This document shows positions 13,249 through 42,170 of a stretch of DNA of 64,000 nucleotides, piece by piece. The notes beneath the pieces are model-generated. The model did not search any database, was not told where the DNA came from, and was given only the letters and a program-made list of their open reading frames with translations. The position numbers were made by a program, and so were the translations under genes. Source of the DNA: Verrucomicrobiales bacterium (GTDB lineage: Bacteria > Verrucomicrobiota > Verrucomicrobiia > Verrucomicrobiales > DEV007); contig JAEUHH010000067.1 in NCBI GenBank assembly GCA_016795505.1, forward strand, positions 1-64,000, in the 5' to 3' direction. How positions within the stretch are numbered: the first letter of the stretch is position 1; the number at the start of each line of letters is the position of its first letter.

Positions 13249-13252
13249 TGGA

Positions 13253-16438: not shown

Positions 16439-16468
16439 GGGGAAAACAGCGGCTGGTGGGGCTCGATT

Positions 16469-16503
16469 GACTCAACAGGGTTTGCTGCCCGAGTCAACAG
16501 GGT
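16469..16503. repeat. Direct repeat GASTCAACAGGGT, 22-bp period, within the defense array
   Basis: In the only sizeable gap of the six-gene array, GACTCAACAGGGT (16469-16481) and GAGTCAACAGGGT (16491-16503) are repeated at a 22-bp period, about two helical turns, 30-65 bp upstream of the methyltransferase start. The ACAGGGT core also occurs in intergenic repeats elsewhere in the window (42.25, 47.96, 55.97 and 58.83 kb). It may be an operator controlling the methyltransferase separately, or a member of a dispersed repeat. Confidence 0.6.
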
Positions 16504-16575
16504 AGGGTTGTAGAGAATTTTCCAGAGATGGCAACCCTCGGGGGTTCTCTTCCGGGTCGTTCATGCGCTCCGCGC

Positions 16576-19500: not shown

Positions 19501-22500
19501 GTAATTGGAGATATCGGGCGGCACATTGCGCAGCATCACCCCCTCGAGGTCGCCGAGATCGATGCCCATCTCCATGGTCGTGGACGAGGAGAGGACGTTG
19601 AGTTTGCCTTCCTTGAAGTCCTTCTCGATTTCTTCGCGAACGTCGGCGGCGATGGCCGCGGTGTGCTCCTTGACGAGGAGGGAAGGCATGTCTTCCAGAC
19701 GGGTGTAGAGGAAATGGTAGTGATTCCGCTCCATCTCATTGAGCCAATCTTTGCCCTCGATCCGTTCGGTCGTGCCGGAGCATCGCCACTGGGTGCAGAC
19801 TCCGCCGACGGAGTAAAAGCTGGTCCTCGAACACTTGTTGCAGCGGTAGATCTGACTCTCGGGATCGCGTAACCGGACGGAGAGGAAGCGATGATCGAGC
19901 ACTTTGGCGGGAGATCCCTCCGTATCACTGCACAGAATCGCTCCCTCGGGATCACGAACGAAGGCGGCCCAGATGTTGCCCAAGAGGGTCTCCCAGTTCG
20001 GGAGCTTCAAGCTATCCCGTAGGACATCGACGAAACGGTTGAGGTAGACGGTCCCGTCGTCCCGGCGACGCGGCAGGAACTTGAATCGGGGCTTGTCCTG
20101 AGCGGTTTCGAGGATGTATTGGCGATCGTCCTGATTGTAGGATCCCCAAACGAACTCGTCGGTGGCCCGAATGCCTGAGGGCATCGAGATGGCACGGTTC
20201 AACCGGATGGAGTCAAGCACCCATCGCATGAGGTTGGGGCCCACGTCGTCCGGCAGGCCTGCCCGCGCGGCCAGAGACTGAAAGTCGATTCCCGCATACT
20301 CGACTTCGACGATCCCCAGATCTTCCAGGGAGGTCCGGCTACCACCGGGAGTGCAGAACTCGGAATACACCTTGCCCCGAATCAGTTCGGGGCGGTCGTT
20401 CCGGTCGACGGGTTTTCCGTCGCGGTTCGTCAATCCGTATTTGAGGGTCGGGTCTCCATCGAGGTCCTCCGACAGAACGTGGAGTTTCACCTTGGACTCC
20501 TCGCGTTTGAGACGTCGGACAATCGCACGGCGGACGAGGAGGTCCTCGTGGCTGCGCTGCAGATAAGGAGCAAAGAATGCGGCATCCTGGCGGTTGTCGC
20601 TGAAGACGAGCATGTTTCTCCCGCGTCCGGGCTTCATGGCCCGGGTCTCCTCCGCCTTCGAGGTGGGGAGATGGGCAAAGAGCACCTCGCTGATCGTCGT
20701 GGAAAGGGCCTGATCGCCGGGATGGAAGGGGGTGATGATCTCGAAACGGTCCTGGGATCCGCAAGATTGACAAATCGTGACCTTGCGCTTGGCATCGGGA
20801 TTGGCATCGACCTCGTCGCGGGTTGGGTTATCCATTCGGGCACGGTGGGTGGCGAGCCACTCGGATGGGTCGTCGTTGTCTCCGAGCAGATCCTGCACCT
20901 CGCCACGGTCGAGATGGATAAACACGGATTCGGGGACATTGCGATCCTCGGCCTCTGCCTCGGTGGAGTCACCGGGGATCACAAACACATCCTTGGGTTT
21001 CAGCCAGAACACAGACCGCTTCCAGCCTCGCCCGTGGTGCTCCGAGCTCAGGTGATGGCCCTTCTCAAACCCCTCGAAATAGAGTTCGCCACACTTGCGG
21101 CAGGTCAGAAGGCGATACCGCTGGGCACCGGTTCTGGCATCCTTGAATTCACGAGCGAAGCGGAGATTCTTGGCGTTTTCTTCATTCTCCTCCGGATGGG
21201 TGAGCTCGACGGTGGCCTCCTCGATGCCGCGGGTGAACAGGTGGTAGCGGGCGGGAAGAAGCGGAAAGGTGTATTCGTTCTCACGGGCATAGGCACCCAG
21301 CGCCACGAGTCCTTTGAGAGCGCCCAAGGCCTCATCTTCGTTACCGACCTCGGGGAAGAGATGTTTCGCGGCTCGGGAGATGGGCTCCAAGCCGCTCTTG
21401 GAGAGGTGCTCGGACAGTTCTCGCACGGATCGTTCGCGAGCAAGAGTCCGGCACAGCAACTGGGAGAGGGTGAGGCCGGATTCAGGCGCGAGGGCGAGGG
21501 GTAGGTCCCGCTCGGCGACGAGACGGTTCCACTCGGGGATCCGTTGTTCCTCGCCCAAATGCCTCACCTGCCGGAGCACCTCGTGCAGTGCGATCCATTG
21601 CTTCGACTCAAGGTGAAACTCGGTCTTCCCCGTCCGGAGAAGAAAATGGGCCTCCCGCTTTCCGGTGACCACGCGTGAGAACTTCGCCCCAAAAAGATTG
21701 CCGGCGAACTGGATGACACGCTTCTTTGATTCCTCGGTGGAGCCGAGGCTGGCGCTCGTGCCGATGCAACGGACATCGGCATTTCGGGCGTAGCGATTGC
21801 GGAGCTTTCTCAGGAGCAGGGACACCTCGGTGGCCTGGGCGCCGGAATAAGTGTGGACCTCGTCAAGGACAAGGAAGCGGAGGTCTGCGTGATTGAAGAG
21901 GTCCGCATTCTTGGGCAAGAGCAGGAGATGCTCGAGCATCGCGTAGTTGGTGACAAGGACGTGCGGAGGGGTGTCGAGCATTTCCTTCCGGGAAAGGAGC
22001 CAGTTCGTCGGAATCTTTTTCCCGAACATCTGCTTGAAGAATTCATCCTCGAGGTATTGCTGCTCGAACCATTGGCGATCCTTGCCGATGGATGTCTGCC
22101 CGGTGTAGCGGCCCACGGTGATCCCAAAGTCCTTCAACTGGTGGGCGAGCACCGGAACGAGGCGACGGTAGAGTTGATCGTTGGCAAGAGCATTCAACGG
22201 ATAGACGAGGATCGCACGGATGCCCGGCTTCCCCTTGATATCAGCCTTCAAAAGGGTGTCCAACAGCGGGAAAAAGAAGCTCTCGGTCTTGCCGGAGCCG
22301 GTGCCGGTCGAAACGACAATATTCTCTTGGTCCACCAGGATCCGCCGGATCGCCTCCTCTTGGTGGACGTGGAGAGGGCGGGTGAAAACCGAAGGTTCGA
22401 GAAATTGAAAACCCTCGTGCAAAAGACCCTCCGCCACGAGATCGCTGAGCGACTTCCCCTTGGGGAAATCGGGAAGCGCCTCGAGAAACGGCCCCTGGAT

Positions 22501-22662
22501 CAATGAGGCACCTTTGGACAACTCCGTGCTCGCCTCTTCCCGCAATTTGGGAAACCGGCGCTGGATGGGAAGAGCGGTAAGCAGGTAGCGGCGCATCCGC
22601 TCCTGGAGATCTTCCTGAAGGCGGATGGGATCAATTTCAATGGGGTCGAACAGGCTGGACAT
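16576..22662 (-). CDS. Giant DEAD/DEAH helicase with DUF1998 module, DruE-like
   Basis: 2028 aa. Helicase motifs: TGTGSGKTESF (Walker A, about residues 118-127), LDEVHTYSG (DEVH, 267-270), then MEMGIDLGDLEGV and QQRAGRAGRRAQ (motifs V-VI). A DUF1998-type module follows, with PGGAGYTAKV and the cysteine cluster CPADCTTSCSKCL at about 1609-1621. Additional CxxC pairs (for example CRKCGEL and CQSCGSQ in the N-terminal half, CNKCS before the C-terminal helicase lobe, CDQC and CSSCEAP after it) suggest several zinc sites. About 390 further residues end in a segment with HDRRVSARF and TGGISMLMDR, faintly like a degenerate phospholipase-D-type domain. Size and layout fit DruE, the hallmark of Druantia systems; DISARM splits these functions over two proteins. 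Start ATG is 6 bp after the upstream stop. Confidence 0.85.
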   Translation of the reverse strand: MSSLFDPIEIDPIRLQEDLQERMRRYLLTALPIQRRFPKLREEASTELSKGASLIQGPFLEALPDFPKGKSLSDLVAEGLLHEGFQFLEPSVFTRPLHVHQEEAIRRILVDQENIVVSTGTGSGKTESFFFPLLDTLLKADIKGKPGIRAILVYPLNALANDQLYRRLVPVLAHQLKDFGITVGRYTGQTSIGKDRQWFEQQYLEDEFFKQMFGKKIPTNWLLSRKEMLDTPPHVLVTNYAMLEHLLLLPKNADLFNHADLRFLVLDEVHTYSGAQATEVSLLLRKLRNRYARNADVRCIGTSASLGSTEESKKRVIQFAGNLFGAKFSRVVTGKREAHFLLRTGKTEFHLESKQWIALHEVLRQVRHLGEEQRIPEWNRLVAERDLPLALAPESGLTLSQLLCRTLARERSVRELSEHLSKSGLEPISRAAKHLFPEVGNEDEALGALKGLVALGAYARENEYTFPLLPARYHLFTRGIEEATVELTHPEENEENAKNLRFAREFKDARTGAQRYRLLTCRKCGELYFEGFEKGHHLSSEHHGRGWKRSVFWLKPKDVFVIPGDSTEAEAEDRNVPESVFIHLDRGEVQDLLGDNDDPSEWLATHRARMDNPTRDEVDANPDAKRKVTICQSCGSQDRFEIITPFHPGDQALSTTISEVLFAHLPTSKAEETRAMKPGRGRNMLVFSDNRQDAAFFAPYLQRSHEDLLVRRAIVRRLKREESKVKLHVLSEDLDGDPTLKYGLTNRDGKPVDRNDRPELIRGKVYSEFCTPGGSRTSLEDLGIVEVEYAGIDFQSLAARAGLPDDVGPNLMRWVLDSIRLNRAISMPSGIRATDEFVWGSYNQDDRQYILETAQDKPRFKFLPRRRDDGTVYLNRFVDVLRDSLKLPNWETLLGNIWAAFVRDPEGAILCSDTEGSPAKVLDHRFLSVRLRDPESQIYRCNKCSRTSFYSVGGVCTQWRCSGTTERIEGKDWLNEMERNHYHFLYTRLEDMPSLLVKEHTAAIAADVREEIEKDFKEGKLNVLSSSTTMEMGIDLGDLEGVMLRNVPPDISNYQQRAGRAGRRAQAAPVSITYARNRRYDQDVFTHAEAFLEREPRTPFVHLGNSRLFQRHQFSILISYYLGHLGLTDSGLQIGQLFGLPRFDLDRQAGGLVPEGGRPTIFSEEHEESFGRSIAEWLDSEAAVKAKQLARDLLETIRGEIDNDAFQSLQRVSDVLEGAFLDAIRRLAVTFGQRYRHYTERSAQHVLTGHLPRAATEQNRAYRWANQPIVNFLSKYGLIPTYSFPVDNIELEVLQGRGWGKQEIELSRDARLGVVEYAPGAEVVAGGRVWTSRAITHTPREFRPPFSYKICDQCRNIESWEDASLIPRHCSSCEAPLSGPPRVYIEPTGFTTAIGESEGKEPGPVRELPPRAMETQLIGNAPEKLFRGTNLLKVEWACQHAQDGRMVVINKGNGEGYVQCSCGYSHAVTKNKRRVESHRNPFTDHQCDREPSSWKFDLAHTFHTDVLQIRGRLIVPTPEPPEGEIWQPDELAAARDGVARTIVEAIRMAACEVVSIPEGEMSSTFRWLPDGGLELVLYDNVPGGAGYTAKVSETPASDLVRHAIEKVLTCPADCTTSCSKCLRSFSNQAYWDQFRRHEAMAWLRRILAVKREDPRNLGGEEIKPAALKDLCEKVDRIGLLRDRLGDFSGGIESGADGRELPLVACYPEWERLNRWLAAGKKITAVCHQLPDFQDPNRPRARRLAETIYPVVRDGQLVIRRATAGALGDQPMPQLVLIDSHQPEATLIYDLGGKSAVLEQLWSGDSVLIARRVPRETAEAFLETGTGLVLAALERPASIQRNFYRSNEARQIARDFAFLTHGPIKTLEITDRYMVGEDWSARYLLDFLTQIGGLLTASPETLVLRYGPERNYEDRNLWKQRIDEVIREASKLNAYRDTKFHPFARPYSKVISNFHDRRVSARFEAPKPVQAEPTGDAPGEEGVGRRQRRRQQQAGSVPKTRVFIAEMTGGISMLMDRQKETTVYIFEDK

Positions 22663-22668
22663 ACGGTA

Positions 22669-25600
22669 TTAATTGGGCTGAAGCTCGGCGAGAGCCAGAT
22701 CGAAAAGGGCGACGTAGAAGGCGAAGAGTTCAGGGGCGAGGCTGAGAAGGGTGCAGATGCCGCTCCTGATCTTCGCTTCCTCGCGGGATCCGCAGAGATC
22801 TGCGAGCCACTTCTCAAACTGGTCGGGATTGATTTGGTGGTGTGCAGCAAGCCGAGCGATTGCCGCCAGTGCCCAAACGATTTCTGCCACCTTCTGCCCC
22901 CAACGGTTCTTGAGGCAAGGAGGCTTCCACCAGAAGAGGTAGTTCTCCGTGTCGTATGGATCCTGAAACTGCTGGTTGATCCCGAGCTTTCTAGATACCG
23001 CGGGCATGAGTTGCTCCAGATGCTGGTGAACAAGCTCGATCGTCTGGGCATGGCCGGCCAGGATGTGGTGCTGTCCGGTCTCGGAAATCGCTCCAATGAG
23101 ATGGCACCGGCGATTGATTCCCCGGATGCAGAACTCAAGATGTTCCGGAGAGAGCAGAGACTCGACCTCAATACGGGCTGTGGAGTCCTCTGCCTCCTCG
23201 GTTCGTTTGTAGAGCTGTTGCAGGAACGGCTGAAAGTTGAAGCGACCCAAGGTCTTGCTTTGGCCCCGGCTGACCGCCGAAAGTTGCGGGAACGAGTGAA
23301 AGGCTGCTGAATCAACGTCCTTCGAATGGTAGGTTTGCGGCACGTAGTATAGCAGGCCCCCGCAACCTTGAATTTCAGCGGCGAGATTGAAAGATCTACC
23401 CAGAGGAGACGCAAAAACCTTCCCCTGCCCGATCCTGATTGAGCCGGGAGGGATCCGAAGGCAGCTTGGCTGAGATCCGAATAGAAACTGCTTCACAACA
23501 GGGGCCAAGTTGAACGACGCATACTCGCACACCTCGAACGTGGAGTGTTCCCACCAGGTTGCGGCACTCTCATCGTGGACATTGAACCGGTATCTGCCCA
23601 GAAATGTGGCGAGGTTCTGAAACCGGTTCGCACAGTTCGACCACACTGACCCCGGGTATTTCCATGCGAGAAGGTCTTGGCAGGCTTGCAGTCCCTTGTC
23701 CAGATCCATGCAATCGAGACTGCCAAGATTCCGTGCAAGTTCGGGATTCGCGTCGCCGCGCCTCGCGCAGCGAAGACGCTTCCACCAGGTCGCCGTCTCC
23801 TCGGGCATCGATGACCCCATTGCGATGATTCTGAGATGGGAGTAGCCCTGGCGCTCGACACATCGGAGCGGCACCCAGGGACTCTCCGGGGACCCGCGCC
23901 TCACGAAGTCGAAAATGAGAAGGTGGTCCTGAATCGAGTCCGCCTTCCATCTCACGACGAACTTGACCAAATCGGATTCACCTTCCCCGCCGCGTCCCGC
24001 TCTGACGGAGAGGCCGGGTATGACCTCGTAGCTGAAGTCGGCGAACCCTTCGGATGCCGAGACCAAGGTCTGTTCAGGACTCGGTGGAGCGTCAGGATGA
24101 TCCGAAAGATCGGTGATGCGCACCGCCACCTCGAACAAATCCTCGGTCGGGATGTTGAAGGACCATTCCTCCATCGCCATCCCGTGATCCTGACTGAACT
24201 TGGGAGAAGATGCCGTGAGCGGCATGGAGAACGTCAAAAGCTTGACTTCCTTGCCATCCTCCCTCCTCGCGAAAATGCTGCCACTCCCTCTGTTGGTGCG
24301 GCAGAGGCCGGCGAGGGATATGGCGAAACTGGACCGACGAGAGTTCAAGGTTCTGATCGAGGAGTGCCCGCAACGGATTTCCCATTCTTGAAATCCTCCG
24401 GAGGTGAATCGAAGGACCCGTTTGTCATCCTTCGCCACGATCACGGGCTCATCTGCGGAAGGCTCCTCCTCCCAATCTTCGTTTGGGGTGATCAGCACGA
24501 CTTGAACCCCGGCACGAGGAAAGGTGAGATCGGCTTGGGGCTTGATCACGCTGAGCCGGATGAAGGGCCGGTGATAACTTTCGACAAAGACCAGGTCTTC
24601 GCCTTTGCCTCTCGCGACTCCCAGACAATTCTTGAGGTCAACATTCGCCGGGAACTGCGAGCACACGAAACCGCGGGACTCGTCAATTCGCTCCAGCCCA
24701 CGCCAATACAAGAACGAATGATCAAGCCGACGGTCGGCATGTGAAAGGGTGAGATTGATCCTATGAATGCCAGCGGGGAGATTTGAGAGGATGGTGGCCA
24801 TCCTCTCTCTGAGGTTCTCCGTAAAGAGGTAAACGCGATTGTTCTCCTCACTCGATTCCAGGTGATCTTCGTAGGAGAAATCGAGGTCGCTGCAGCTCAC
24901 CTTCAACGGGAACCTCGGATCGATCTCTCCGTTTGCCGGAAAATAGGCGACGAGACCGACAGAGGGCCCATAATGGAGCAGCTCGCCATCGTCCAGCCGA
25001 ATGGAGCTACCACGATCTCGATCAACGAAGACGCCCGATTGAAGCTCACAGGAAATCTCCCAACTCCGATCTCCGGAGTTCAACACGAGCGGCTCGTCTC
25101 CGGGACGAAGCTCCAGATGCCGGAGGACGCGGTAGCCGTTGATATCCTGGACTTCGGCGTCGTCCTCGCCTGCAGCGACATCTGGCGCCATTACGACGAG
25201 ATAGTCGCCGGCGGGCAGTTGGCAGGAGGTCCCGGCGTCCGCTTTGCGCTCCCGGAGAGTGTCTTCCCGGAAGATCCGAAAGGGAACGGTATCGTCCAGA
25301 CGAGCATCAATCTGAAACTCCTGGTCTTGATAACTTCCCAAGAGGCGTTTCAGAGAAACAGTAAACTGATCACTCTCGATCTCCGAGAGAGGAATCCTCG
25401 CCTCGGATCGTGCCGCGTAGGGTCGCGAGAATGCGACCCACCGGGTATCGGGCGTGGAGATGCGGTTGCTCTGCGTCGGCAGAACCAATTCGATCTCGTC
25501 GAGGACCGGGTCAAAGGCAAGGTAGGGGCCACGAAGCACCGCTCCCCGACCGACTCCCTCAAAGGCGGCACGCATCGGCTCCCGGAGATGAGAGGGCAAG

Positions 25601-26235
25601 GCAGAGTCGTCATTCTTCAAATAGGCGATCATCAGCCTCCGGACAAGCAGTGGCCCAATAGGACTATTTAGAGCTTGAATCAGGATCGGCTGATTCACGA
25701 TTCGGGCCTGCAATTCCCGAACGAAGCGACTCACGACGGCTTCATCATCGAGATCAGGTGCCGGAAGGACCGTTAGCGTTCTGCGAAGGCCTTCTGCCAG
25801 GGAATGTCTCCAGTAATGTAAAATCCCCCCTTGAAAAATGAGTGGGGCGGCGTGTACCCAACCGACGTTTTCGATGGTTCCCTCAAAAATGCCGAGGCGG
25901 GAACAAGCAAGGATGAACGCCGATGAGACGTTTTGCTGTTCTGGCGGGGAAAGTCGAAGCCCCAGTTTCTCTTCCACACACGGCCAAAACTGCCCCCCGG
26001 GAAGCTCTGAGATTGAACGCGCCAGCATCAAGGCATAACAGGTGGCTCCTGCTTGGGTTCTCAGGAGTTGGCCGATGGAAATTGGAGGACTTCCGCTCAA
26101 GGCCTCTCGAACCAGCCTTATGACCGCCATTTGCTCCGATTCCGAAAGGGGCAGGAATCCAAGGATCGTCTTCTCCGGTACCTCGCTAATGCGCCGAAGA
26201 ATCAGGTCGTTTGCCTCGTTGAGATCGGTGATCAT
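22669..26235 (-). CDS. Unrecognised 1188-aa protein upstream of the DruE-like helicase
   Basis: No catalytic motif is visible. Residues 1-230 are helical; the middle (about 240-780) is dominated by short beta-rich blocks, with conserved-looking lines such as RIPLSEIESDQFTVSLKRLL and GYRVLRHLELRPGDEPLVL, suggesting several Ig-like or beta-sandwich domains; the last 350 residues are helical again. The gene sits 18 bp after the sigma-like gene and 6 bp before the helicase gene, so it is part of the same transcript. By position and size it corresponds to DruH of type III Druantia (a two-gene druH-druE system), but I cannot show sequence relationship by eye. Possible role: DNA or phage-component recognition platform for the helicase. 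Confidence 0.65.
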   Translation of the reverse strand: MITDLNEANDLILRRISEVPEKTILGFLPLSESEQMAVIRLVREALSGSPPISIGQLLRTQAGATCYALMLARSISELPGGQFWPCVEEKLGLRLSPPEQQNVSSAFILACSRLGIFEGTIENVGWVHAAPLIFQGGILHYWRHSLAEGLRRTLTVLPAPDLDDEAVVSRFVRELQARIVNQPILIQALNSPIGPLLVRRLMIAYLKNDDSALPSHLREPMRAAFEGVGRGAVLRGPYLAFDPVLDEIELVLPTQSNRISTPDTRWVAFSRPYAARSEARIPLSEIESDQFTVSLKRLLGSYQDQEFQIDARLDDTVPFRIFREDTLRERKADAGTSCQLPAGDYLVVMAPDVAAGEDDAEVQDINGYRVLRHLELRPGDEPLVLNSGDRSWEISCELQSGVFVDRDRGSSIRLDDGELLHYGPSVGLVAYFPANGEIDPRFPLKVSCSDLDFSYEDHLESSEENNRVYLFTENLRERMATILSNLPAGIHRINLTLSHADRRLDHSFLYWRGLERIDESRGFVCSQFPANVDLKNCLGVARGKGEDLVFVESYHRPFIRLSVIKPQADLTFPRAGVQVVLITPNEDWEEEPSADEPVIVAKDDKRVLRFTSGGFQEWEIRCGHSSIRTLNSRRSSFAISLAGLCRTNRGSGSIFARREDGKEVKLLTFSMPLTASSPKFSQDHGMAMEEWSFNIPTEDLFEVAVRITDLSDHPDAPPSPEQTLVSASEGFADFSYEVIPGLSVRAGRGGEGESDLVKFVVRWKADSIQDHLLIFDFVRRGSPESPWVPLRCVERQGYSHLRIIAMGSSMPEETATWWKRLRCARRGDANPELARNLGSLDCMDLDKGLQACQDLLAWKYPGSVWSNCANRFQNLATFLGRYRFNVHDESAATWWEHSTFEVCEYASFNLAPVVKQFLFGSQPSCLRIPPGSIRIGQGKVFASPLGRSFNLAAEIQGCGGLLYYVPQTYHSKDVDSAAFHSFPQLSAVSRGQSKTLGRFNFQPFLQQLYKRTEEAEDSTARIEVESLLSPEHLEFCIRGINRRCHLIGAISETGQHHILAGHAQTIELVHQHLEQLMPAVSRKLGINQQFQDPYDTENYLFWWKPPCLKNRWGQKVAEIVWALAAIARLAAHHQINPDQFEKWLADLCGSREEAKIRSGICTLLSLAPELFAFYVALFDLALAELQPN

Positions 26236-26253
26236 GGAATCGTGAAGGGAAGA

Positions 26254-29100
26254 TCAGGCAGCAGAAGCGGCCCCGAGGAAGCGGGCGAGGTGCCTCTCGA
26301 CCACGATGATGTAATCGACATATTTTCCGAAAAGGAACGGGCCGGATGTCCAGATCTGAGTTCTGTCTTTGCTCGTGATGTTGTGGGCATGCTGGTTCCG
26401 CTCTTTGCGAAGCAGGTGCAGCTCGTCGCTGTCGTCAAAGAGTCGGTAACGAACAGCCCAATCGATCCGGCTCTTCAGCCCTTGATGATCGCGATCACGA
26501 TCGACCGGAATCTTGTTCTTTCTCTCAGCGATCTCGAGAAGGACCCGAAGGGCCTCGTCGAAGGCCCGTCCCGCGCAAATCAGAGCGATATCCACATTGC
26601 TGGGCGTCATGAAATCCAAACCGCGCGTCAGCTCATCCCGCCAGACATGGTATTTGAGCGAGCCAATCGACTGCCTGATGCGCGATTCTCCGGGGAAGGC
26701 GGATTTCTGAGCCGCTGCCAATTCCGGCTTTGAGTCCTCTTTTTTGGGAGTATTTACGGGAACCTCGATGGGAGTAGGTACAGACTCGGGGGCGACCAAG
26801 AAAGGTTCCGTCGCCAGTGCGGCCACATTCGAGACGCGTCGGCACAGTTTTGTCGGAGTTCCCTCAATTTGAAATGTTTCAAACTGCTCAGAGTTACTGA
26901 TCACCCCGTAGGTAATGTGCCTGGCAATTCCGAGGTCAGTTTCAACACCCTTGACAAGATCCACGAGCGGACAGGCCTCTTCATCGAGGTTGTCGAAACG
27001 CTGGTCGAGCCAACGTTGAATGGCGTTCCAATTCGCCCCGTGTTGAACGCTGCGTTCGCGACGCTTTCGTGAGATGCGCTCTGCGGTTTCCGCTTCTGTG
27101 AGGAGGCGGGCATAACGAGCGCGCCCCCGAGTCTCGATGCTGAGCCGCGGATAAGCTCGCAAGATCCCGGAAGCCTGGGGTGTCGTGTAACCGCTCCCTT
27201 GCTCAAACTGCTTACGAAGCTTGGAGAAAACCACTTCATCCGTGCCTTCCTCGGCGAAAAAGTCCTCAAGAAACGCGGAAAGCGCTTCGTGAGTCCAGTG
27301 ACCCGAAGTGGCGAGTGCGGCGTCTCCCCACTTCTTCAGACCCCAGAGATTTGGGCCAAGCTCCGTGAAAACGCTGGGATTCTTCTGCAAAATGAATCTC
27401 AGTGATGTGGCGGCGATCGGACGCTTTGCGGCCACCTCTTCGTGCAATTGGGAAGAGGTCAGTGCCTCTCCTGCCTCTTCCAAGGCCCTCTGGGCGACCT
27501 CGGAGACGGTCCCTGTTTCAATGTCCCAAGCTACCCAAGTCCACTGTCCTGTCCTTCCGATCGGGCTTAGCTGGGATTGCCGGACGAAATGCGCCGTGAT
27601 CCGGCCTTCACGCTCCGAAGCCTTGGATTCAGGGTTTCGCTCGTCGATGAGGCGGGCGATCTCGTTGTAGTGCAGCGGCTCACCACTCTCGACAATAACC
27701 CGGAGCGCCTGCTGCCCGAGGGTGAGGAGGTCAAAACGGATCGAGATCAGCCCTTGGTCGTCTGTGACAATTCGGTCCGAAAGATCGAAAAGTTGTTCCA
27801 AATCGTCGGGGAGAATCGCGTTGTCCCCAAGCCTTTGGTTGCATTCTGGTAAGAGATCGAGCGGCCGAATCGGAAGAGGTTTGTCTGCAAGAATATCCTC
27901 AATGACTTCGATTCGGGTGAGCTGAGCCTGCCGCATCTCCTTCGTCACCGAAGCAGGGAAGACCAACCATCCGTCCCCACTTCCTCTGCCTGAGTATTCG
28001 CCATAGCCAAGGATTTCGGTGATGAGGGTGAGGTTTCGGGAAATGAATTGCTCTGGCACCTCCCAGATCGTCGCTAGTTCCCGGATCCACTCAGGTGTCT
28101 TCCAGATGCGTTCGCCGAATTCGCTCAGGAAGCGTGAAGCTCGCCTTACGAGGGTCTCAACCTCCGGTCGGAAGCGGAACAAAGTCTGATCATAGTCACC
28201 ATCAAAAATCGCATTCCGGATCCTGCTGATGCTGAGCGCTTCAAGCTGGCGGATGCGTTCGCGGGTCACTTGAAACTGCTGGCCAACCTTTTCGAGGGTC
28301 GGCCGCTCTTCCCGCGATTTCATGAGTCGCTCGTCAAAAACCGCGAGTTCCTTGCCCTTTCCACTGATGACGACGGTTTCCCTCGCCATTTCAGGCAGCA
28401 GCATGATGAGCTCTTCGTTCCCGTGCAGCCATTGGTTCGTCGAAGGGATGACGGTCAATCCGCGGATCTCAGCGAAGCTGAGCCAGTTCACATTCCCCTC
28501 GGAGTCGATTGAGCGGGATAGGGCCAGGACGGACGAAGCGATCTCCTCGAAGGCTTTCCGTCCGAGATTCCTCACATCCGAGATTCCGCCCTCCACCGCT
28601 CCGATCAACTTGCCGATGGTGTCCCAACCTTGTTCCCGGAGCGGATTCTGGGCCTTGAAAAAGTGGAGGCTCGCAATTCCTTTCTGGGCGTCAGCAGGAT
28701 GCAAGCGGCCAAAGCTCGGGCTTGAGAAGCAGAGCCATGAAATCCCGACCCGTTGATCGTGGGCATATTCGATCCAGTCAAGCCGGGCAGATTCTTGATC
28801 AATGAACTCCTCAAGGATGCGGAATTTTTCTGCCAACTCCTCTACGACTTGAGGACTGAAGTGAGACGTGTTCAAATGACCCCGTTGCCACGCGTCGTAG
28901 GCGCCTCCAGTTGAGAGGGTGCCAGTCTTCTCCAAGGCGCACAGGCTGTGTTTCGAGAGCTGAAGCATCCGAAGGGGCCGCACCCGATCCAAGTGGGTCC
29001 TGTCGGAAAAAATATCATCCAGCCCGATGGCGGCAGCCTGCTTCGGCTGCTCCAGCGATCTGGGCGCGAACTCCAGAATGAATTGATTAAGTGTTGACAT
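26254..29100 (-). CDS. Sigma-region-4/HARE-type HTH protein with C-terminal HEPN-like domain
   Basis: 948 aa, first gene of the minus-strand array. At about residues 258-290 it reads RPTLEKVGQQFQVTRERIRQLEA, which is very close to the region 4.2 helix-turn-helix of sigma-70 factors (binds -35 elements). At about 462-592 two winged-helix-like blocks follow (LRVIVESGEPLHYNEIARLI, and EEAGEALTSSQLHEEV), similar to HARE-HTH domains. The C-terminal 100 residues are helical and contain RNQHAH (about 901-906), matching the HEPN Rx4-6H motif, with upstream similarity to DUF4145-like domains. Regions 2 and 3 of sigma factors are absent, so it is not a complete sigma factor. It could be a transcriptional regulator or a DNA-sensing subunit carrying a ribonuclease-like domain. 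The defense role is inferred from its operon. Confidence 0.7.
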   Translation of the reverse strand: MSTLNQFILEFAPRSLEQPKQAAAIGLDDIFSDRTHLDRVRPLRMLQLSKHSLCALEKTGTLSTGGAYDAWQRGHLNTSHFSPQVVEELAEKFRILEEFIDQESARLDWIEYAHDQRVGISWLCFSSPSFGRLHPADAQKGIASLHFFKAQNPLREQGWDTIGKLIGAVEGGISDVRNLGRKAFEEIASSVLALSRSIDSEGNVNWLSFAEIRGLTVIPSTNQWLHGNEELIMLLPEMARETVVISGKGKELAVFDERLMKSREERPTLEKVGQQFQVTRERIRQLEALSISRIRNAIFDGDYDQTLFRFRPEVETLVRRASRFLSEFGERIWKTPEWIRELATIWEVPEQFISRNLTLITEILGYGEYSGRGSGDGWLVFPASVTKEMRQAQLTRIEVIEDILADKPLPIRPLDLLPECNQRLGDNAILPDDLEQLFDLSDRIVTDDQGLISIRFDLLTLGQQALRVIVESGEPLHYNEIARLIDERNPESKASEREGRITAHFVRQSQLSPIGRTGQWTWVAWDIETGTVSEVAQRALEEAGEALTSSQLHEEVAAKRPIAATSLRFILQKNPSVFTELGPNLWGLKKWGDAALATSGHWTHEALSAFLEDFFAEEGTDEVVFSKLRKQFEQGSGYTTPQASGILRAYPRLSIETRGRARYARLLTEAETAERISRKRRERSVQHGANWNAIQRWLDQRFDNLDEEACPLVDLVKGVETDLGIARHITYGVISNSEQFETFQIEGTPTKLCRRVSNVAALATEPFLVAPESVPTPIEVPVNTPKKEDSKPELAAAQKSAFPGESRIRQSIGSLKYHVWRDELTRGLDFMTPSNVDIALICAGRAFDEALRVLLEIAERKNKIPVDRDRDHQGLKSRIDWAVRYRLFDDSDELHLLRKERNQHAHNITSKDRTQIWTSGPFLFGKYVDYIIVVERHLARFLGAASAA

Positions 29101-29197: not shown

Positions 29198-29213
29198 GAC
29201 GTCTTCTGACGTC
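29198..29213. promoter_or_regulatory. Operator-like tandem palindrome GACGTC-N4-GACGTC (copy 1)
   Basis: Two perfect 6-bp palindromes, GACGTC at 29198-29203 and 29208-29213, are spaced 10 bp start to start, one helical turn. They lie 56 bp upstream of the CARF-type gene and between it and the divergent six-gene array. The same arrangement with the same spacing recurs at 30386-30401 on the other side of that gene. This is what a dimeric winged-helix regulator binding two adjacent sites would be expected to use. Confidence 0.75.
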
Positions 29214-29269
29214 AAAAGACCCCTTTGAACGATGGAGATAGGCTTTATTGGTGCCACAATCCGATTCAT

Positions 29270-30376
29270 ATGAAAGACTCTCCACAAACCGTTCTCATCA
29301 GCCTTGTCGGAACCACGCCAGCCGTTCTCACCGAGACGGTTTGGGCGATGGCCACTGGGACTGAACAAGTCGTGCCGGACCGGGTCGTAGCGGTGACGAC
29401 GCGGCCAGGGGCCGAGCTCCTCAGGAGAAAGCTCTTTTCCGACGGACATTGGGGTCGGATGAAAGAGAGACTGATGGAGTCGGGAGGGGACCTTGAGGGA
29501 AAGCTCCGATTCGGAGACACCGGGAACTCCATCCGAGTCTTCACCGGTCGCACAGAGGAGATAGAGCTCGACGACATTCGAACCAAGGACGACAGCGCGG
29601 CTGTTGCCGAGTTCTTTATGGAGCTAATTCGGGGGTTCACCGAGAATGAAGCGATTCGCTTGATCGTTTCAATCGCGGGGGGGCGCAAGACGACGAGTGC
29701 CCTGCTGCATTCCGTGATGACGCTTCTCGGACGCGCGGAGGACATGATCACTCATATCTTGGTTGATGACCCCTGGATGAACCAACCGGACTTCCTTTAC
29801 CCCGGGTGCGAAGGCTCCTTCAAGGACGCTCAGACCGGGGAGGTCCTCAACAGTGCGGACGCGACACTGACGATTGCTGAAGTCCCGTTTGTCCCCCTCC
29901 GCTACCTCTTCAAAAAGGAGTTGGACCGGTCGGCCGGAAGCTATCTGGAACTGATGACGCGCCTACAAAAGCAGTCGATCTCGGTCAAAGAAGATCTCTT
30001 CGTCCAGGTTGATACGCGACGTGGCGTGATCAATGTGAGCGGCAAGGAAATCGCGCTTTCACCGAACGAGTTTCTTTTCTACCTGTTCTTCGCCAAGCAC
30101 GCAAAGGCGTCGAAATCCCCGGTGGAGGCCTACGCCACAATAGTCGATGAGCTGACTGACCTCGCCAACGAGTTCAAACCGGAGAACGACTTCAATCATT
30201 GGAGTTACAAAGCCGGCCAAAAGATCCTCGGGGACGAAGATCCCAGGAAGTGGGCATCGAGCATTCGTAAAAAGATCGAAATCGCCGGATTCGACGACGT
30301 GGAAGTCAATCTGCTCGTGCCTAAACGGGCAAGGCTGATCATCGATCTCCCCCCAGAAGCGATCGAGGTTGTCTGA
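29270..30376 (+). CDS. CRISPR-ring-nuclease-like (NE0113/SSO2081-type CARF) protein with C-terminal winged helix
   Basis: 368 aa; ATG at 29270 chosen over an upstream TTG because MKDSPQTVLISLVGTTPAV starts directly with the first CARF strand. The N-terminal domain has the family signatures: ISLVGTTPAVLTETVWA, Ser11 in the first loop, and SIAGGRKTT at residues 134-142, whose Lys140 sits where Sso2081-type ring nucleases keep a catalytic lysine. Such domains bind and often cleave cyclic oligoadenylates. From about residue 248 the sequence resembles an OmpR/PhoB-type winged helix: a strand pair VINVSGKEIAL, SPNEFLFYLFFAKHA, then a candidate recognition helix WASSIRKKIE and a final hairpin ARLIIDL. 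No CRISPR array or cas gene is nearby; a CBASS operon follows on the same strand. I infer a ligand-responsive transcriptional regulator, possibly also degrading the signal. Confidence 0.75.
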   Translation: MKDSPQTVLISLVGTTPAVLTETVWAMATGTEQVVPDRVVAVTTRPGAELLRRKLFSDGHWGRMKERLMESGGDLEGKLRFGDTGNSIRVFTGRTEEIELDDIRTKDDSAAVAEFFMELIRGFTENEAIRLIVSIAGGRKTTSALLHSVMTLLGRAEDMITHILVDDPWMNQPDFLYPGCEGSFKDAQTGEVLNSADATLTIAEVPFVPLRYLFKKELDRSAGSYLELMTRLQKQSISVKEDLFVQVDTRRGVINVSGKEIALSPNEFLFYLFFAKHAKASKSPVEAYATIVDELTDLANEFKPENDFNHWSYKAGQKILGDEDPRKWASSIRKKIEIAGFDDVEVNLLVPKRARLIIDLPPEAIEVV

Positions 30377-30385
30377 CCTACCAGT

Positions 30386-30401
30386 GACGTCAGCGGACGT
30401 C
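30386..30401. promoter_or_regulatory. Operator-like tandem palindrome GACGTC-N4-GACGTC (copy 2)
   Basis: GACGTC at 30386-30391 and 30396-30401, again 10 bp start to start, in the 93-bp gap between the CARF-type gene and the HNH-SAVED gene, about 70 bp upstream of the latter's ATG. The spacers differ between copies (TTCT in copy 1, AGCG in copy 2), so the conserved parts are just the palindromes and the spacing. This argues for a binding site kept by selection and not a recent duplication. It probably overlaps the promoter of the three CBASS genes. Confidence 0.75.
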
Positions 30402-30469: not shown

Positions 30470-31627
30470 ATGATCCTCAAAAAAGTCAAAACACGAGATA
30501 TTCCGGCCGACGTCCGTTACCTGCTATGGGGGAGATCCGCCGGAAGGTGCCAGTTTAACGGGTGCAACAAGCCGGTCTGGAAAAACCCGGTGACCCAGGA
30601 GGAGGTCAACATTGCCCAAGCGGCCCACATCTACGCGTTCAGCGAGGATGGCCCGCGGGGAAACGCGGGAATCGAGGACGAAGACCTGAACTCGCTCAAA
30701 AACCTCCTCCTGACCTGCCATGCGTGCCACAAGACGATCGACACCAAGGGAAAAGAGCTGCGCTACTCCGTCGACCTCCTTCAGAAGTGGAAAGCCAGTC
30801 ACGAGGGCCGGATCGAACGCGTCACCGGAGTCGATCCGGATCATCACAGCCACATAGTTCTTTTTGGCCGAGGGATCGGGGATGTCCGATCGCCCCTCCG
30901 ATATGATCGTGCCGCAGCTGCAATGTTTCCGATGCACTACCCTGCCGCTGACAGGGCGATCGAATTGGGCAAAGGTGCCAGCGAACGCACCGAAAGGGAC
31001 GAAGAGTTCTGGAGGCTCGAACTGGCCGATCTTGAGAAGCGATTTGGACGCCTGCTTCTCGAACCTTTATCGGACGGTGAAGTTTCCCATCTCTCGATTT
31101 TCGCACTCGCCCCGATGCCGCTCCTCATCCGGCTCGGGACGCTGTTGACCGACATCCGGGATGTCGAGATCTACCAGCTGCACCGTGCCCCGAAGGGTTG
31201 GGAATGGCCGTCGAAAGAAAGAACGCTCACCATCGATCTGCAACAACCGCAGTCGCTGACCGGGGCACCAGCGCTGGTGATCTCCCTTAGCGCCACCATT
31301 TCTGAAGATCGGATCAATCGCGTGCTGGGACAGGACGCATCCATCTGGCGGCTCACCACCCCCGAACCCACTCAAGAATGCATCCGCTCCCGTGCGGACC
31401 TCAATGCGTTCTACCTCGCGGTGCTGAAGGCGATGGATGCGATCAAAGCGGCTCATGGTGAATCCCGTCCGCTCTCCATCTTTCCTGCCGCTCCAGTGTC
31501 CACGATGGTGAAGCTCGGCCAGGCCAGGCAGCCGAAGGCCGATCTCGACTGGATCATCTACGACGAGGTGAAGGAGCTCGGCGGATTCGTCAAAGCAATC
31601 CGCATCGGAAACCGGTCAGAAGATTAA
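30470..31627 (+). CDS. cap5: HNH-SAVED effector nuclease (Cap5-like), CBASS
   Basis: 385 aa; ATG at 30470 begins MILKKVKTRDIPADVRYLLW. An HNH nuclease domain occupies about residues 15-90: C-x4-C pair in GRCQFNGCNK, AHI (IAQAAHIYAF), NLLLTCHACHKTID with the second zinc/cysteine pair and catalytic His. Residues about 120-380 form a SAVED domain (HIVLFGRGIG at its start, LSIFALAPMPLLIRLGTLL in the middle, ALVISLSATI and the final lines). SAVED binds cyclic nucleotides made by the CD-NTase and is a relative of CARF. Known Cap5 proteins tetramerise on a cyclic dinucleotide and then degrade DNA, killing the infected cell. First of the three core CBASS genes; 18 bp before the CD-NTase gene. Confidence 0.9.
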   Translation: MILKKVKTRDIPADVRYLLWGRSAGRCQFNGCNKPVWKNPVTQEEVNIAQAAHIYAFSEDGPRGNAGIEDEDLNSLKNLLLTCHACHKTIDTKGKELRYSVDLLQKWKASHEGRIERVTGVDPDHHSHIVLFGRGIGDVRSPLRYDRAAAAMFPMHYPAADRAIELGKGASERTERDEEFWRLELADLEKRFGRLLLEPLSDGEVSHLSIFALAPMPLLIRLGTLLTDIRDVEIYQLHRAPKGWEWPSKERTLTIDLQQPQSLTGAPALVISLSATISEDRINRVLGQDASIWRLTTPEPTQECIRSRADLNAFYLAVLKAMDAIKAAHGESRPLSIFPAAPVSTMVKLGQARQPKADLDWIIYDEVKELGGFVKAIRIGNRSED

Positions 31628-31645: not shown

Positions 31646-32845
31646 ATGCACCCAGGAAACCAAAATCCAAAGGCAACCCGCATCCTTGAGGAACTCGTCC
31701 AGCTCCTCGACATCCCACCCGGCTACTACCAGAAGACGGTAGACCGCTACGAATCGATGGCAACCTACTTCCATCGGCCTCAATCAACGATCCGGCACCT
31801 TGATCCACTGGTCCATCCACACGGTTCGTTCCGGCTCGGAACTGTCATTCGCCCGCTCTTTCCCGACGAGGGCTATGACCTCGACCTGGTTTGCCGCGTT
31901 GCGGCCGACAAACGGAGCATCAGCCAAGAAGACCTGAAGAAGCTCATTGGGGGCGAGGTGACCTCCTATTCCCGCGAGAACGGGTTCAAGGAGGGACCCA
32001 TCGAGAAGCGTCGATGCTGGACCCAGCACTACCAGGATGAGGTGAAGTTCCATATGGACGTGCTCCCGAGCATCCCGGCGGGCGACCGATACAGGCGCCA
32101 ACTCCAGGAAGCAGGAATCAGCCAGGACCTGATCGCAGAGGCGATCAACATCACCGATAATACCGAACCAAACTACTCCTACATCAGCCCGGACTGGCCT
32201 CGGAGCAACCCACGAGGATTCGCGATCTGGTTCGACTGGAGGATGGACGACGGGGGCCTCGCGTCCCAGTCTCGGAGGAGACTCTTTGAGAAGAACGCAG
32301 GGGTCTATGCCTCGGTCGACGAGGTCCCAGCCTCCGAACTGAAGACGCCCTTGCAGCGCGTCATTCAGCTCCTCAAGCGTCACCGGGACCAAATGTTCCG
32401 GACCGACTGCAAAGGCAAGCCGATTTCGATCATCATCACCACGCTGGCGGCCCGTGCCTACAACGGAGAGGCAGACCTCTCGGCGGCGATGGCGGGCGTG
32501 CTGGCGAAGATGGGTGAGTTCGTTTCCCAATCCCGCCCCCGGATCCCAAACCCGGTCGACCCTAACGAAGACTTCACGGATCGGTGGGACGCCAAGCTGG
32601 AAGACAACTTCTGGCGTTGGCTGCGGCAGGCTCAGCGCGATTTCGCGCAGATGGCCAAATCCGATCTCACCAAGGGAAGTCTTGAGCGACAGCTCGAAGA
32701 GTCCTTCGCCGTCCGGATGTCGCCCGAGACGATGGCCGCCTTTGCTTTTCCCGCGCTCGGTGCCCCGGCAATCATCGTGGGCCAGGATCGCCAGGTCACA
32801 ACCATCCGTAAAGATGCTGCTTCTTCGTGGGGGGGCCGTGGATGA
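31646..32845 (+). CDS. CD-NTase (cGAS/DncV-like nucleotidyltransferase), CBASS
   Basis: 399 aa, ATG at 31646. The nucleotidyltransferase signature is clear: HPHGSFRLGT (GS motif, Gly60-Ser61) followed by EGYDLDLV with metal-binding Asp78 and Asp80, and the third acidic residue Asp138 in KFHMDVLPSI. The size and spacing match bacterial CD-NTases. It should make a cyclic di- or oligonucleotide on phage sensing. The protein ends in SSWGGRG, a glycine-rich, exposed-looking tail with a C-terminal glycine; in type II CBASS the CD-NTase C-terminus is the residue attached to targets by the E2-like partner, which is encoded next with a 4-bp ATGA overlap. The nucleotide product cannot be predicted from the sequence alone. 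Confidence 0.93.
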   Translation: MHPGNQNPKATRILEELVQLLDIPPGYYQKTVDRYESMATYFHRPQSTIRHLDPLVHPHGSFRLGTVIRPLFPDEGYDLDLVCRVAADKRSISQEDLKKLIGGEVTSYSRENGFKEGPIEKRRCWTQHYQDEVKFHMDVLPSIPAGDRYRRQLQEAGISQDLIAEAINITDNTEPNYSYISPDWPRSNPRGFAIWFDWRMDDGGLASQSRRRLFEKNAGVYASVDEVPASELKTPLQRVIQLLKRHRDQMFRTDCKGKPISIIITTLAARAYNGEADLSAAMAGVLAKMGEFVSQSRPRIPNPVDPNEDFTDRWDAKLEDNFWRWLRQAQRDFAQMAKSDLTKGSLERQLEESFAVRMSPETMAAFAFPALGAPAIIVGQDRQVTTIRKDAASSWGGRG

Positions 32846-33522
32846 ATGATCCTTGCCGAGCACTGCATGAACGTTGGCAACTCGAGCAATTTCTCGATTG
32901 CCACCCTGAACTGCACGTGTCCTTTCTCCCCCAATGTGGCCTTCGCATTGAGGGAGATCTCGTTTTCACCGCGGTCTCGAAAGGATTTGCCCGACTCGAA
33001 GATGCCTTCTCGATTCGCCTGGAGGTCACTGCCGATTTTCCTCGCTCCATTCCGAGGGTGTTCGAGATTGCAGCGAGGATTCCGAGGGCCTACCACCATC
33101 TTTCGGATGGAAGTCTGTGTCTCGGGTCACCACTCCGTCAGCGAATCTTGATGTCTCAAGACCCCACTCTCTGCGGCTTCGTGAACCTGCTCCTGATCCC
33201 CTATCTCTACAATCGAAGTTACTTTGAGAAGCACGAGATCCTGCCAATCGGAGAGTTGGAGCATGGAGCGCCAGGTCTGGTGTCGGACTACGAGAAAATT
33301 TTCAAGGTCAAGGGCGTGACGGCCTGTGCAGGAATGCTCAAGCTGCTCGGGTTGCACAAGCGACTCGCAAACAAGCGTCCTTGTCCGTGCGGCAGTGGAA
33401 GGAGGCTCGGCAGGTGCCACAATTTCGTTCTTAATCCGCTGAGGCGAATGGCTTCGCGGAGCGAATTCCGGCATCATCTGCGAATCCTACTCAGTCAAGG
33501 TGGGGCTTTGAATCGCTGGTGA
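32842..33522 (+). CDS. E2-like conjugating protein with SEC-C zinc motif (type II-short CBASS Cap2)
   Basis: 226 aa; ATG 32842 overlaps the CD-NTase stop. The E2 fold is indicated by a hydrophobic strand FSIRLEVTADFPRSIPRVFE and the active-site region HHLSDGSLCLGS with candidate catalytic Cys93, as in prokaryotic E2 families. There is no E1 domain and no JAB peptidase gene, which defines the 'type II-short' arrangement. Unusually, after the E2 core the chain continues and carries a SEC-C motif, CPCGSGRRLGRCH (Cys181, Cys183, Cys192, His193), a small zinc knuckle also found at the end of SecA. Inferred role: linking the CD-NTase C-terminal glycine to a target to activate it, with SEC-C perhaps choosing the partner. 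Confidence 0.8.
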   Translation: MNDPCRALHERWQLEQFLDCHPELHVSFLPQCGLRIEGDLVFTAVSKGFARLEDAFSIRLEVTADFPRSIPRVFEIAARIPRAYHHLSDGSLCLGSPLRQRILMSQDPTLCGFVNLLLIPYLYNRSYFEKHEILPIGELEHGAPGLVSDYEKIFKVKGVTACAGMLKLLGLHKRLANKRPCPCGSGRRLGRCHNFVLNPLRRMASRSEFRHHLRILLSQGGALNRW

Positions 33523-34022: not shown

Positions 34023-35819
34023 ATGTCCCGCGAAACCGACATCCAATGGTGCGACAGCACGGTGAACCCCATCATGGGGTGCGCCGGCTGCGAGCTATTT
34101 CCCAATACGGAGAGCGTCCTAGCTGCCATCGATCAGGCGGTCGGGAGGGTCCTTGGGGGAGACGTTGGGGCACGATGGGGAGCCGGACAGGCAAAGAAGA
34201 TCTATCGGAGCCTCATCTTTGAGGCCTTCGATGCGATACCGGAGGACCGGCGGAAAGCCGGCCACAAGCGGGCCGTCACGACCACCAACCTCTGGCATCT
34301 CCGGGAGCGTTTCGTTCAGGCGGTCCGCCAATCCCACGGTGCCCAAGCGGCCGAGGCCGCGCGTGGAGCGATCGCGCGGGAGGTCACCTGCTACGCCGCC
34401 AAGCTGCACCTGAACAAGGGGCTGAGCATCCTCAAGCCCGAGCGGAAGGCCCACCCAGGCTATGCGCCGGCATTCGAACAGGTGACCCAGTATGCGGAGA
34501 GAGTGCAGGAGGCGGCCGGGTGGGAGGATCTTCGGGGAAAGAGCGATCCTGACCGTCCTTGGATCGATGGACTCCCGCGGCTGATTTTCGTGTCCGACAT
34601 GGGGGATGCGTTGTCGAGGGATTCGGACTTTACCTTTCTGGAGGAGAGACTCATCGCCCCCATCCAGAGCGAGGCGGGTCGTCGGCATCTCTGGCTCTGG
34701 CTGACGAAGCGGCCGGATCGAATGGCCCGATTTGCCGAGAGGGTGGGGGGATTTCCGGACAATGTGTGCGCGATGACGACGGTGACGTCGCGGGAGCATT
34801 TGGGGCGGATCGATGACCTGCGCCAGGTGAAAGCAGAGATTCGAGGCTTGTCGATTGAGCCGCTGTTCGAGCGATTACCTCCCGAGCAGGTTGATCTGAC
34901 GGGGATCGACTGGCTGATTTTGGGAGGCGAATCGGGAGCGGAGTTGAAAGATTCCCGTCCGTTCGCGATTGAATGGGCCGAGGAGTTGCGGCAGCACTGC
35001 CGCCAGAATGGGGTGGCCTTTTTCTTGAAGCAGCTGGGTCGTCGGGTCACCTGGCGAGACGAAGTCGTGACTCTGAAGGACCGACACGGTGGCGAGTGGG
35101 ATGAGTGGCCGGAGGAGGCGCCGCGGGTGCGGGAGTTCCCCCAAGCCTTCCACCGCTACCGGGCCGGTGAGTGCGGAGACGGGCAAACGATGGGGTTGCG
35201 CCGCCAACGACAGGGTGGGATGACTCCGGGCGAGAAGAGGGAATTTGATCGGCTGAATGGAATTGTGGGCCGATTTGCCCGCGATCTCATTGTGGCGGCG
35301 GACGCGCTTTACCAGATACGTGATCAGAGGCTCTATCGGGGGCAGTTCAGAACCTTCTCGGAATACTGCGAGTCTGTTCATCAACTCTCTCGGCAGTATG
35401 CAGATCGGTTGATCAAGGCTGGGCAACTGAGGAGCGAATTGGCGCCAATTGTTTCCAATTTGGGGCTGGAATTGCCGGACAACGAGGCGCAGTTGAGGGA
35501 ATTGGCGCGGATCAAGGAACCGCAGCAGCGAATCGAGATTCTGAAGGAGGCACACAATCGGGCACGTGATCTGAACACGGGGGCTTCCGCCGCAAGGCCG
35601 TCTCGATTGACTGCCAAGCTGATCAAGGCGGTTCGCGACGAGACCTCAGGCAATGAGACTCCACCCACGGCGGCGAAGCGAGGTTCCGGTAGTTCTCCCA
35701 AGGATCGAATGGCCGAAGCTAGGGATGTGCTCAGCGAGCTAGAAGATGCGGTTCGGACTCAGGACATGGGGTCAATCAGGAGACTGGTGAAAAGTCTCCG
35801 AAAGGCACTTGGTGCGTGA
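34023..35819 (+). CDS. DUF5131 (phage Gp37/Gp68-type three-Cys) protein fused to ParB-like DNA-binding region
   Basis: 598 aa. The N-terminus TDIQWCDSTVNPIMGCAGC is typical of the Gp37/Gp68 (DUF5131) family, a radical-SAM-related group with three key cysteines; the expected CYA (VTCYAAKLHLNKG) follows only after an insertion of about 100 residues. LIFVSDMGDAL, LWLWLTKRPDRM, LSIEPL, DWLILGGESG and FFLKQLG complete the family pattern to about residue 345. From about 400 on it changes to FRTFSEYCESVHQLSRQYADRLIKAGQLR, PDNEAQLRELARI and a charged tail, the pattern of ParB/KorB-like helix-turn-helix regions of plasmid proteins. The usual partner, TcmP, is not present. The function is unknown; the family is common in phages and defense islands. 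Last complete gene of the island. Confidence 0.8.
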   Translation: MSRETDIQWCDSTVNPIMGCAGCELFPNTESVLAAIDQAVGRVLGGDVGARWGAGQAKKIYRSLIFEAFDAIPEDRRKAGHKRAVTTTNLWHLRERFVQAVRQSHGAQAAEAARGAIAREVTCYAAKLHLNKGLSILKPERKAHPGYAPAFEQVTQYAERVQEAAGWEDLRGKSDPDRPWIDGLPRLIFVSDMGDALSRDSDFTFLEERLIAPIQSEAGRRHLWLWLTKRPDRMARFAERVGGFPDNVCAMTTVTSREHLGRIDDLRQVKAEIRGLSIEPLFERLPPEQVDLTGIDWLILGGESGAELKDSRPFAIEWAEELRQHCRQNGVAFFLKQLGRRVTWRDEVVTLKDRHGGEWDEWPEEAPRVREFPQAFHRYRAGECGDGQTMGLRRQRQGGMTPGEKREFDRLNGIVGRFARDLIVAADALYQIRDQRLYRGQFRTFSEYCESVHQLSRQYADRLIKAGQLRSELAPIVSNLGLELPDNEAQLRELARIKEPQQRIEILKEAHNRARDLNTGASAARPSRLTAKLIKAVRDETSGNETPPTAAKRGSGSSPKDRMAEARDVLSELEDAVRTQDMGSIRRLVKSLRKALGA

Positions 35820-41936: not shown

Positions 41937-42170
41937 CGAGCCGGAGGCTCGACGGAAATAAGCCGATGGCGACAGCCACCGGAAACCTCCAAGAAAAAAA
42001 CGAGCGCCCCGGAGGGGCGCCAGCAAGAGGACGCCGGACCTGTGTCTGTCCCGGAAATTGGCTGTCCGATGTGGACGCCACTCCGCCGCCCCTGCCGGGG
42101 CGGTCTGGTGAGGGCGGGTGGAAATCGGTGGCTGTCGCCACCGGCTCATTTCCGCGGAGCCTCCGGCTCC
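41937..42170. repeat. Long inverted repeat with about 54-bp arms and internal hairpins
   Basis: The left arm (41937-41990) and the right arm (42117-42170) are clearly reverse complements with some mismatches; shared core features are AGCCGGAGGCTC, GGAAAT and GGCGACAGCCACCG. The roughly 125-bp centre holds two further GC hairpins, GCGCCCCGGAGGGGCGC (42004-42020) and CCGCCCCTGCCGGGGCGG (42086-42103). No coding capacity. This looks like a non-autonomous REP/BIME- or MITE-like element in the 520-bp gap upstream of the DCC gene; the rest of that gap (41795-41936, 42171-42249) shows nothing else. Confidence 0.8.

Follow-up and report, generated by a model that had tools for sequence, protein, structure and literature searches.

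The window analysed here comprises 64,000 nucleotides of contig JAEUHH010000067.1 (positions 1 to 64,000, forward strand) from the Verrucomicrobiales bacterium assembly GCA_016795505.1. It encodes a 368-amino-acid protein that combines an N-terminal CARF domain of the NE0113/CARF5 family with a predicted C-terminal winged helix. Directly downstream, as a sequence-only reading of this DNA had noted, lie the genes of a cyclic oligonucleotide-based antiphage signalling system (CBASS) on the same strand, i.e. an HNH-SAVED effector, a CD-NTase and an E2-like protein (Table 1). Two perfect copies of the element GACGTC-N4-GACGTC flank the CARF gene, and a Druantia-like arm points in the opposite direction. 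From its sequence, we consider it quite likely that the protein works as a one-component transcription switch, controlling itself and the CBASS operon through this element.

Table 1. Features of the locus (window coordinates)
Feature	Position	Strand	Remarks
Putative operator 1, GACGTCTTCTGACGTC	29198..29213	.	Perfect GACGTC-N4-GACGTC; third degenerate unit to 29223 (GACCCC)
CARF5/NE0113-winged-helix regulator gene	29270..30376	+	Start ATG 29270, stop codon 30374-30376; 368 aa; CARF ~1-220, predicted winged helix ~240-368
Putative operator 2, GACGTCAGCGGACGTC	30386..30401	.	Perfect match; ~69 bp ahead of HNH-SAVED start codon
HNH-SAVED effector, Cap5-type	30470..31627	+	Pfam SAVED 3e-44; PADLOC CBASS effector 2.7e-136; AsCap5 7RWK 260 bits
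CD-NTase (cyclic-nucleotide synthase)	31646..32845	+	PADLOC CBASS cyclase 1.4e-114; PDB 9woo 298 bits; SmCdnG 79 bits
E2-like CBASS protein with SEC-C motif	32842..33522	+	PADLOC E2 6.5e-63; Pfam SEC-C
948-aa protein, RpoA-CTD / sigma-4 / HARE-HTH-like segments	26254..29100	-	First gene of divergent Druantia-like arm
1188-aa protein	22669..26235	-	No Pfam match; 41% homolog near CD-NTase in L164
DruE-type helicase, 2028 aa	16576..22662	-	PADLOC DruE1 6.1e-180

The amino-terminal part of the regulator matches the Pfam family PF09623 (Cas_NE0113) with E 1.8e-26 and 93.7 bits against a cut-off of 23, and the NCBIfam model TIGR02584 matches the protein with E 8.5e-45 and 153 bits against a curated cut-off of 80.65. 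Its best PADLOC model is CARF5 (E 3.1e-63, residues 6-337), while CARF_m13 reaches only 5.8e-6. Residue 11 is a serine, and the stretch SIAGGRKTT at 134-142 contains the GGRK motif at 137-140. Judged by these scores and by the GGRK motif, the protein belongs to the NE0113/CARF5 family. The sequence-only reading, which had placed an NE0113-type CARF domain with Ser11 and SIAGGRKTT at the amino terminus, is thus borne out by all three models and by the residue positions. No second NE0113 gene was found in the 6.55-Mb genome, which is 96.6% complete.

For the carboxy-terminal part, the C-terminal domains of 22 relatives were combined into a profile, which was searched against all PDB sequences. 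Its first eight matches are OmpR-family effector domains, the best being CpxR (E 0.0016), and the OmpR-type matches include CpxR, SaeR, ArlR, RstA and PrrA. Two blocks align with these domains in the correct order, the leading strands with the first helix and then the recognition helix, and hhalign against a very small, three-sequence OmpR set gave 84.9%. The case for an OmpR-type winged helix, as the sequence-only reading had supposed, is a good one, sequence-based rather than structural, and the regulator appears to have the C-terminal DNA-binding domain of CARF-winged-helix transcription regulators.

In the whole genome there are exactly two perfect GACGTC-N4-GACGTC copies, one 5′ of the CARF gene and the other between the CARF gene and the CBASS operon. 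The outer edges of the two coincide with the interval 29198-30401 that the sequence-only reading had singled out. Operator 1 sits in a divergent gap, with the 948-aa gene (minus strand) on one side and the CARF gene (plus strand) on the other. In the clade of the window protein, the element continues with the same 10-bp periodicity into a third unit, and this three-unit layout fits tandem binding by OmpR-type domains.

The element is not a peculiarity of this genome. In the following, loci (L) and genomes (G) carry our own numbers. It also occurs 5′ of the homologs L002, L033, L106, L194, L195 and L196. Among the first set of family loci, GACGTC pairs are found 14 times at 10-bp spacing, a count that includes one duplicate copy of the second window site, versus once each at 6, 11, 12 and 18 bp. 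A later set of 20 loci gave five pairs at 10 bp, one at 12 and one at 28; perfect sites in this set precede the CARF gene of L194, L195 and L196, and in L195 they also lie between CARF and cas1. In an unbiased screen of 64 palindromic hexamers at 21 spacings (1,344 combinations) over 78 kb of flanks, GACGTC-N4-GACGTC ranks first with eight sites in seven loci, the runner-up having two sites in one locus. Across 48 CARF-carrying genomes (198.7 Mb) there are 22 perfect sites, and 11 of these fall within 12 kb of a CARF gene (binomial p ~2e-19). Further perfect sites are more distant: those of G042, G266 and G020 still belong to the same cas region, and in G160 one precedes an AAA gene on another contig. 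Sites that are perfect or have one mismatch head the CARF gene itself, cas10 operons (L037, L039, L052, L060, L129, L130), cas1 (L033, L037, L043, L045, L050, L052, L060, L089, L107, L111) and AAA-ATPase genes (L036, L106, L128). Near the plasmid relatives of the regulator, which are distant, the element was not found. These patterns mark GACGTC-N4-GACGTC as the conserved, predicted cognate operator of this CARF5 family. Separately, operator-like sites occur at the cmr3/cmr4 junction (L130 11805, L131 5937, L204 1543; with one mismatch L197, L198, L200); they may be a coding motif, because some may fall in coding sequence.

The family is at home in type III CRISPR (clustered regularly interspaced short palindromic repeats) loci, as cas or type III ancillary genes are present in 58 of the 75 whole-genome homolog neighbourhoods. 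The window genome departs from this usual context. The sequence-only reading had seen no CRISPR array or cas gene in the window, and the whole genome is without a RAMP-family match, although, at 96.6% completeness, a type III locus could in principle lie in the missing part. RAMP genes were absent from the five tested genomes that have no cas gene beside CARF (G000, G476, G662, G228, G160), against three in the control G134. The tree places the window protein in a fully supported clade with L002 and L106, to which the type III-B locus L033 is sister (100/99); a second non-CRISPR group, L035 with L036, falls among the type III members. The CARF gene of L106 has a type I restriction-modification operon on one side and an AAA-ATPase gene on the other, and that of L036 lies ahead of Fic and AAA genes; the copy in G476 is incomplete at a contig end, so that its partner gene is not visible. 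The simplest history is that protein and operator left type III loci together at least twice. A phage or viral origin was considered and dismissed, as no homolog turned up in phage records or viral contigs. As an observation in its own right, a DUF3696 AAA-ATPase gene followed by a second gene is found twice, headed by the operator and next to a divergent CARF5 regulator (L036 5539-9428, second gene PLD-like; L106 10595-13508, second gene without Pfam match), possibly an uncharacterised defence pair.

On this basis the following mechanism can be proposed. The N-terminal CARF domain would be the sensor and the OmpR-like winged helix the DNA binder. We infer that the regulator binds GACGTC-N4-GACGTC close to its own promoter and again immediately ahead of the CBASS operon, and because binding is proposed at both elements it would control itself as well as CBASS, probably turning the operon on or off. 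Control of CBASS transcription by the CARF protein, as the sequence-only reading had it, is well supported by the winged helix and by the conserved operator between the two. Most likely, the regulator would be an autoregulated repressor that keeps CBASS low until an infection-linked nucleotide ligand alters DNA binding and expression rises. The repressor sign is suggested by CapW, CapH and CapS, known controllers of immune operons that are repressors (PMC13373217). An activator is also possible, because Csa3b represses adaptation genes yet activates cmr (PMC7480081). The family is native to type III-B CRISPR loci, in which this operator heads cas10 and cas1, and the branch of the window protein departed from them while retaining protein and operator.

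The divergent arm (9563-29100, minus strand) encodes the 948-aa and 1188-aa proteins, the DruE-type helicase, a type III methyltransferase, a 274-aa protein and a type III restriction-like helicase. Operator 1 is 98 bp upstream of the 948-aa gene. Because it lies in the promoter gap of this arm, the Druantia-like operon may share control, and the regulator might act on it through operator 1; the 948-aa gene and its operon are a candidate second target, not an established one. In another genome of the same family (L164 2590-11761), a gene homologous (41%) to that of the 1188-aa protein follows a CD-NTase gene and an AAA gene of DUF3696-like type.

The CBASS operon had been called complete. This holds for the E2-only type (type II-short form), to which we assign it because no E1 or JAB partner of the E2 gene was seen at the locus, and not otherwise. 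Downstream, a DUF5131 protein with PADLOC candidate-defence matches is encoded at 34023-35819 (plus strand), and an Acido-Lenti-1 RNA at 41937-41982 (minus strand) scores slightly above the gathering threshold.

Several observations weigh against the proposed switch. Single-sequence AlphaFold models, whether of the full 368 residues or of the C-domain by itself, are poor, with mean predicted local distance difference test values of 37 and 44, leaving the fold unconfirmed, and a Pfam scan of single C-domains gave no significant helix-turn-helix match. A recognisable operator is missing near the gene in many type III members. Scattered perfect sites also occur in CARF-less genomes (17 in 42), and because of these the element alone is not diagnostic. 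The partnership of the regulator with CBASS was encountered only once. Overlapping samples of 388 genomes from the phylum and 387 from the order yielded relatives of the CD-NTase in 12 further genomes, and both the CARF gene and the operator are absent from all 13 other CD-NTase loci (11 order genomes, G372 and the plasmid locus L127), even though L159, L163 and L127 have the same gene order HNH-SAVED, CD-NTase, E2. The recurrent linkage of homologs to CD-NTase/SAVED genes that the sequence-only reading had looked to was thus not found, and a CBASS-specific regulator family in the manner of CapW was rejected. Vibrio gigantis p1 carries a distantly related CARF gene as well as a CBASS operon, but with ~45 kb between them, which we did not count as linkage. 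Whereas protein and operator are generally associated, the association with CBASS is a single case.

The operator might belong to a different regulator, with the CARF protein a bystander left over from a lost CRISPR locus. Most relatives of the regulator are indeed type III genes, and the sites ahead of cas1 and cas10 could be controlled by another factor. However, the CARF gene is the common factor among loci with very different downstream genes, its reading frame is full-length with conserved pocket residues, and both perfect sites of the genome flank it, which makes a bystander improbable. The sequence-only reading had further suggested that the protein perhaps destroys the signal; it would then be a ring nuclease with a vestigial winged helix. 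The NCBIfam name of TIGR02584 is ring nuclease, a label that our results do not support, and Lys140 of the GGRK motif is kept in 50 of 51 homologs. Position 11, on the other hand, is Ala in 40 of these 51 and Ser in three. Moreover, the ring nuclease Crn1 has been assigned to CARF7 and CARF_m13 (PMC12409355), outside of which the CARF5 regulator stands, and the CARF-winged-helix protein Csa3 is without ring nuclease activity (PMC9704534). Family placement and the lack of conservation at Ser11 led us to reject an identity with Crn1 of the SSO2081 type, and signal destruction by the regulator appears very improbable.

CARF and SAVED are related ligand-binding folds, and in a narrower form of the proposed switch the CARF domain would bind the cyclic nucleotide of its own CD-NTase, the first trace of which would raise CBASS expression or, as a co-repressor, lower it. 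Besides the kinship of the folds, this is favoured by the lack of a RAMP match, since the type III complex is the usual source of cyclic oligoadenylate, and by positions 11, 16 and 142, which in the clade of the window protein differ from type III members and may reflect an altered ligand. Furthermore, responses to cyclic oligoadenylate or one of its analogues are on record for the CARF-winged-helix proteins Csa3a and Csa3b (PMC8699464; PMC7480081). Yet the nearest solved relative of the effector, AsCap5, is activated by the dinucleotide 3′,2′-cGAMP (PMC8568899), whereas the CARF ligands in a review are cyclic tetra- and hexa-adenylates (PMC9704534), which makes sensing of the CBASS signal uncertain. 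In addition, the closest full-length relative, L106, and also L035/L036 serve at AAA-ATPase loci, in genomes where the search recovered no relative of the window CD-NTase. We therefore regard such feedback as rather doubtful. The chances are not far from even that the ligand is another product of infection or damage, such as a host-derived linear or cyclic oligonucleotide or RNA ends with 2′,3′-cyclic phosphate, in which case the protein would be a general alarm for whichever defence operon follows. Family and operator precede unrelated systems in RAMP-less genomes (CBASS, AAA with a second gene, Fic-AAA-PLD), and RNA ends of this kind have been proposed as the signal for RtcR-type CARF regulators encoded beside non-CRISPR defence loci (PMC11090510). 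Against this, the search for cyclic-nucleotide sources in the AAA-locus genomes covered relatives of the window CD-NTase only. Going beyond the one-component switch, we tentatively raise the possibility that CARF5-winged-helix proteins are portable signal-gated modules that carry their operator along, having arisen in type III-B loci and been captured at least twice by CRISPR-less operons (CBASS; AAA-PLD), and that here a nucleotide alarm switches CBASS and the Druantia-like system together.

We found no description of the GACGTC-N4-GACGTC operator or of a CARF regulator of CBASS in the open-licence papers searched. The regulator is homologous over its full length to the NE0113/TIGR02584/CARF5 proteins, which were predicted in 2014 to be transcription regulators since they lack an effector domain (PMC4012209); members are usually type III-associated, whereas the one in the window lies in a RAMP-less genome 5′ of CBASS. 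This family gains a concrete predicted DNA target and, for many type III-B loci in the phylum, a predicted regulon, and the ligand question for orphan CARF regulators becomes directly testable. A close parallel in architecture is offered by Csa3a and Csa3b of Sulfolobales, in which a CARF sensor is likewise fused to a winged helix; a 2022 review lists Csa3 as the sole non-nuclease CARF effector with experimental characterisation (PMC9704534). Csa3b binds at the promoters both of adaptation cas genes and of cmr (PMC7480081), paralleling the operators ahead of cas1 and cas10 in CARF5 loci, but both proteins belong to another CARF family, are archaeal and CRISPR-linked, and have no tie to CBASS. 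The RtcR-like proteins already provide examples of CARF-type regulators in the vicinity of non-CRISPR defence genes (PMC11090510), and the locus described here would add a CRISPR regulator that is re-used together with its operator by other immune systems. With the CdnG-Cap5 CBASS the operon shares an HNH-SAVED effector nearest AsCap5 and a CD-NTase related to SmCdnG; it differs in having an E2 gene and the CARF regulator. CapW/BrxR, CapH with CapP and CapK with CapS are likewise encoded beside CBASS and other immune operons (PMC13373217). They are of the WYL, protease or kinase types, respond to single-stranded DNA or DNA damage, and none is a CARF protein; if our reading is true, a CARF-type regulator joins these known CBASS regulators, which sense DNA damage.
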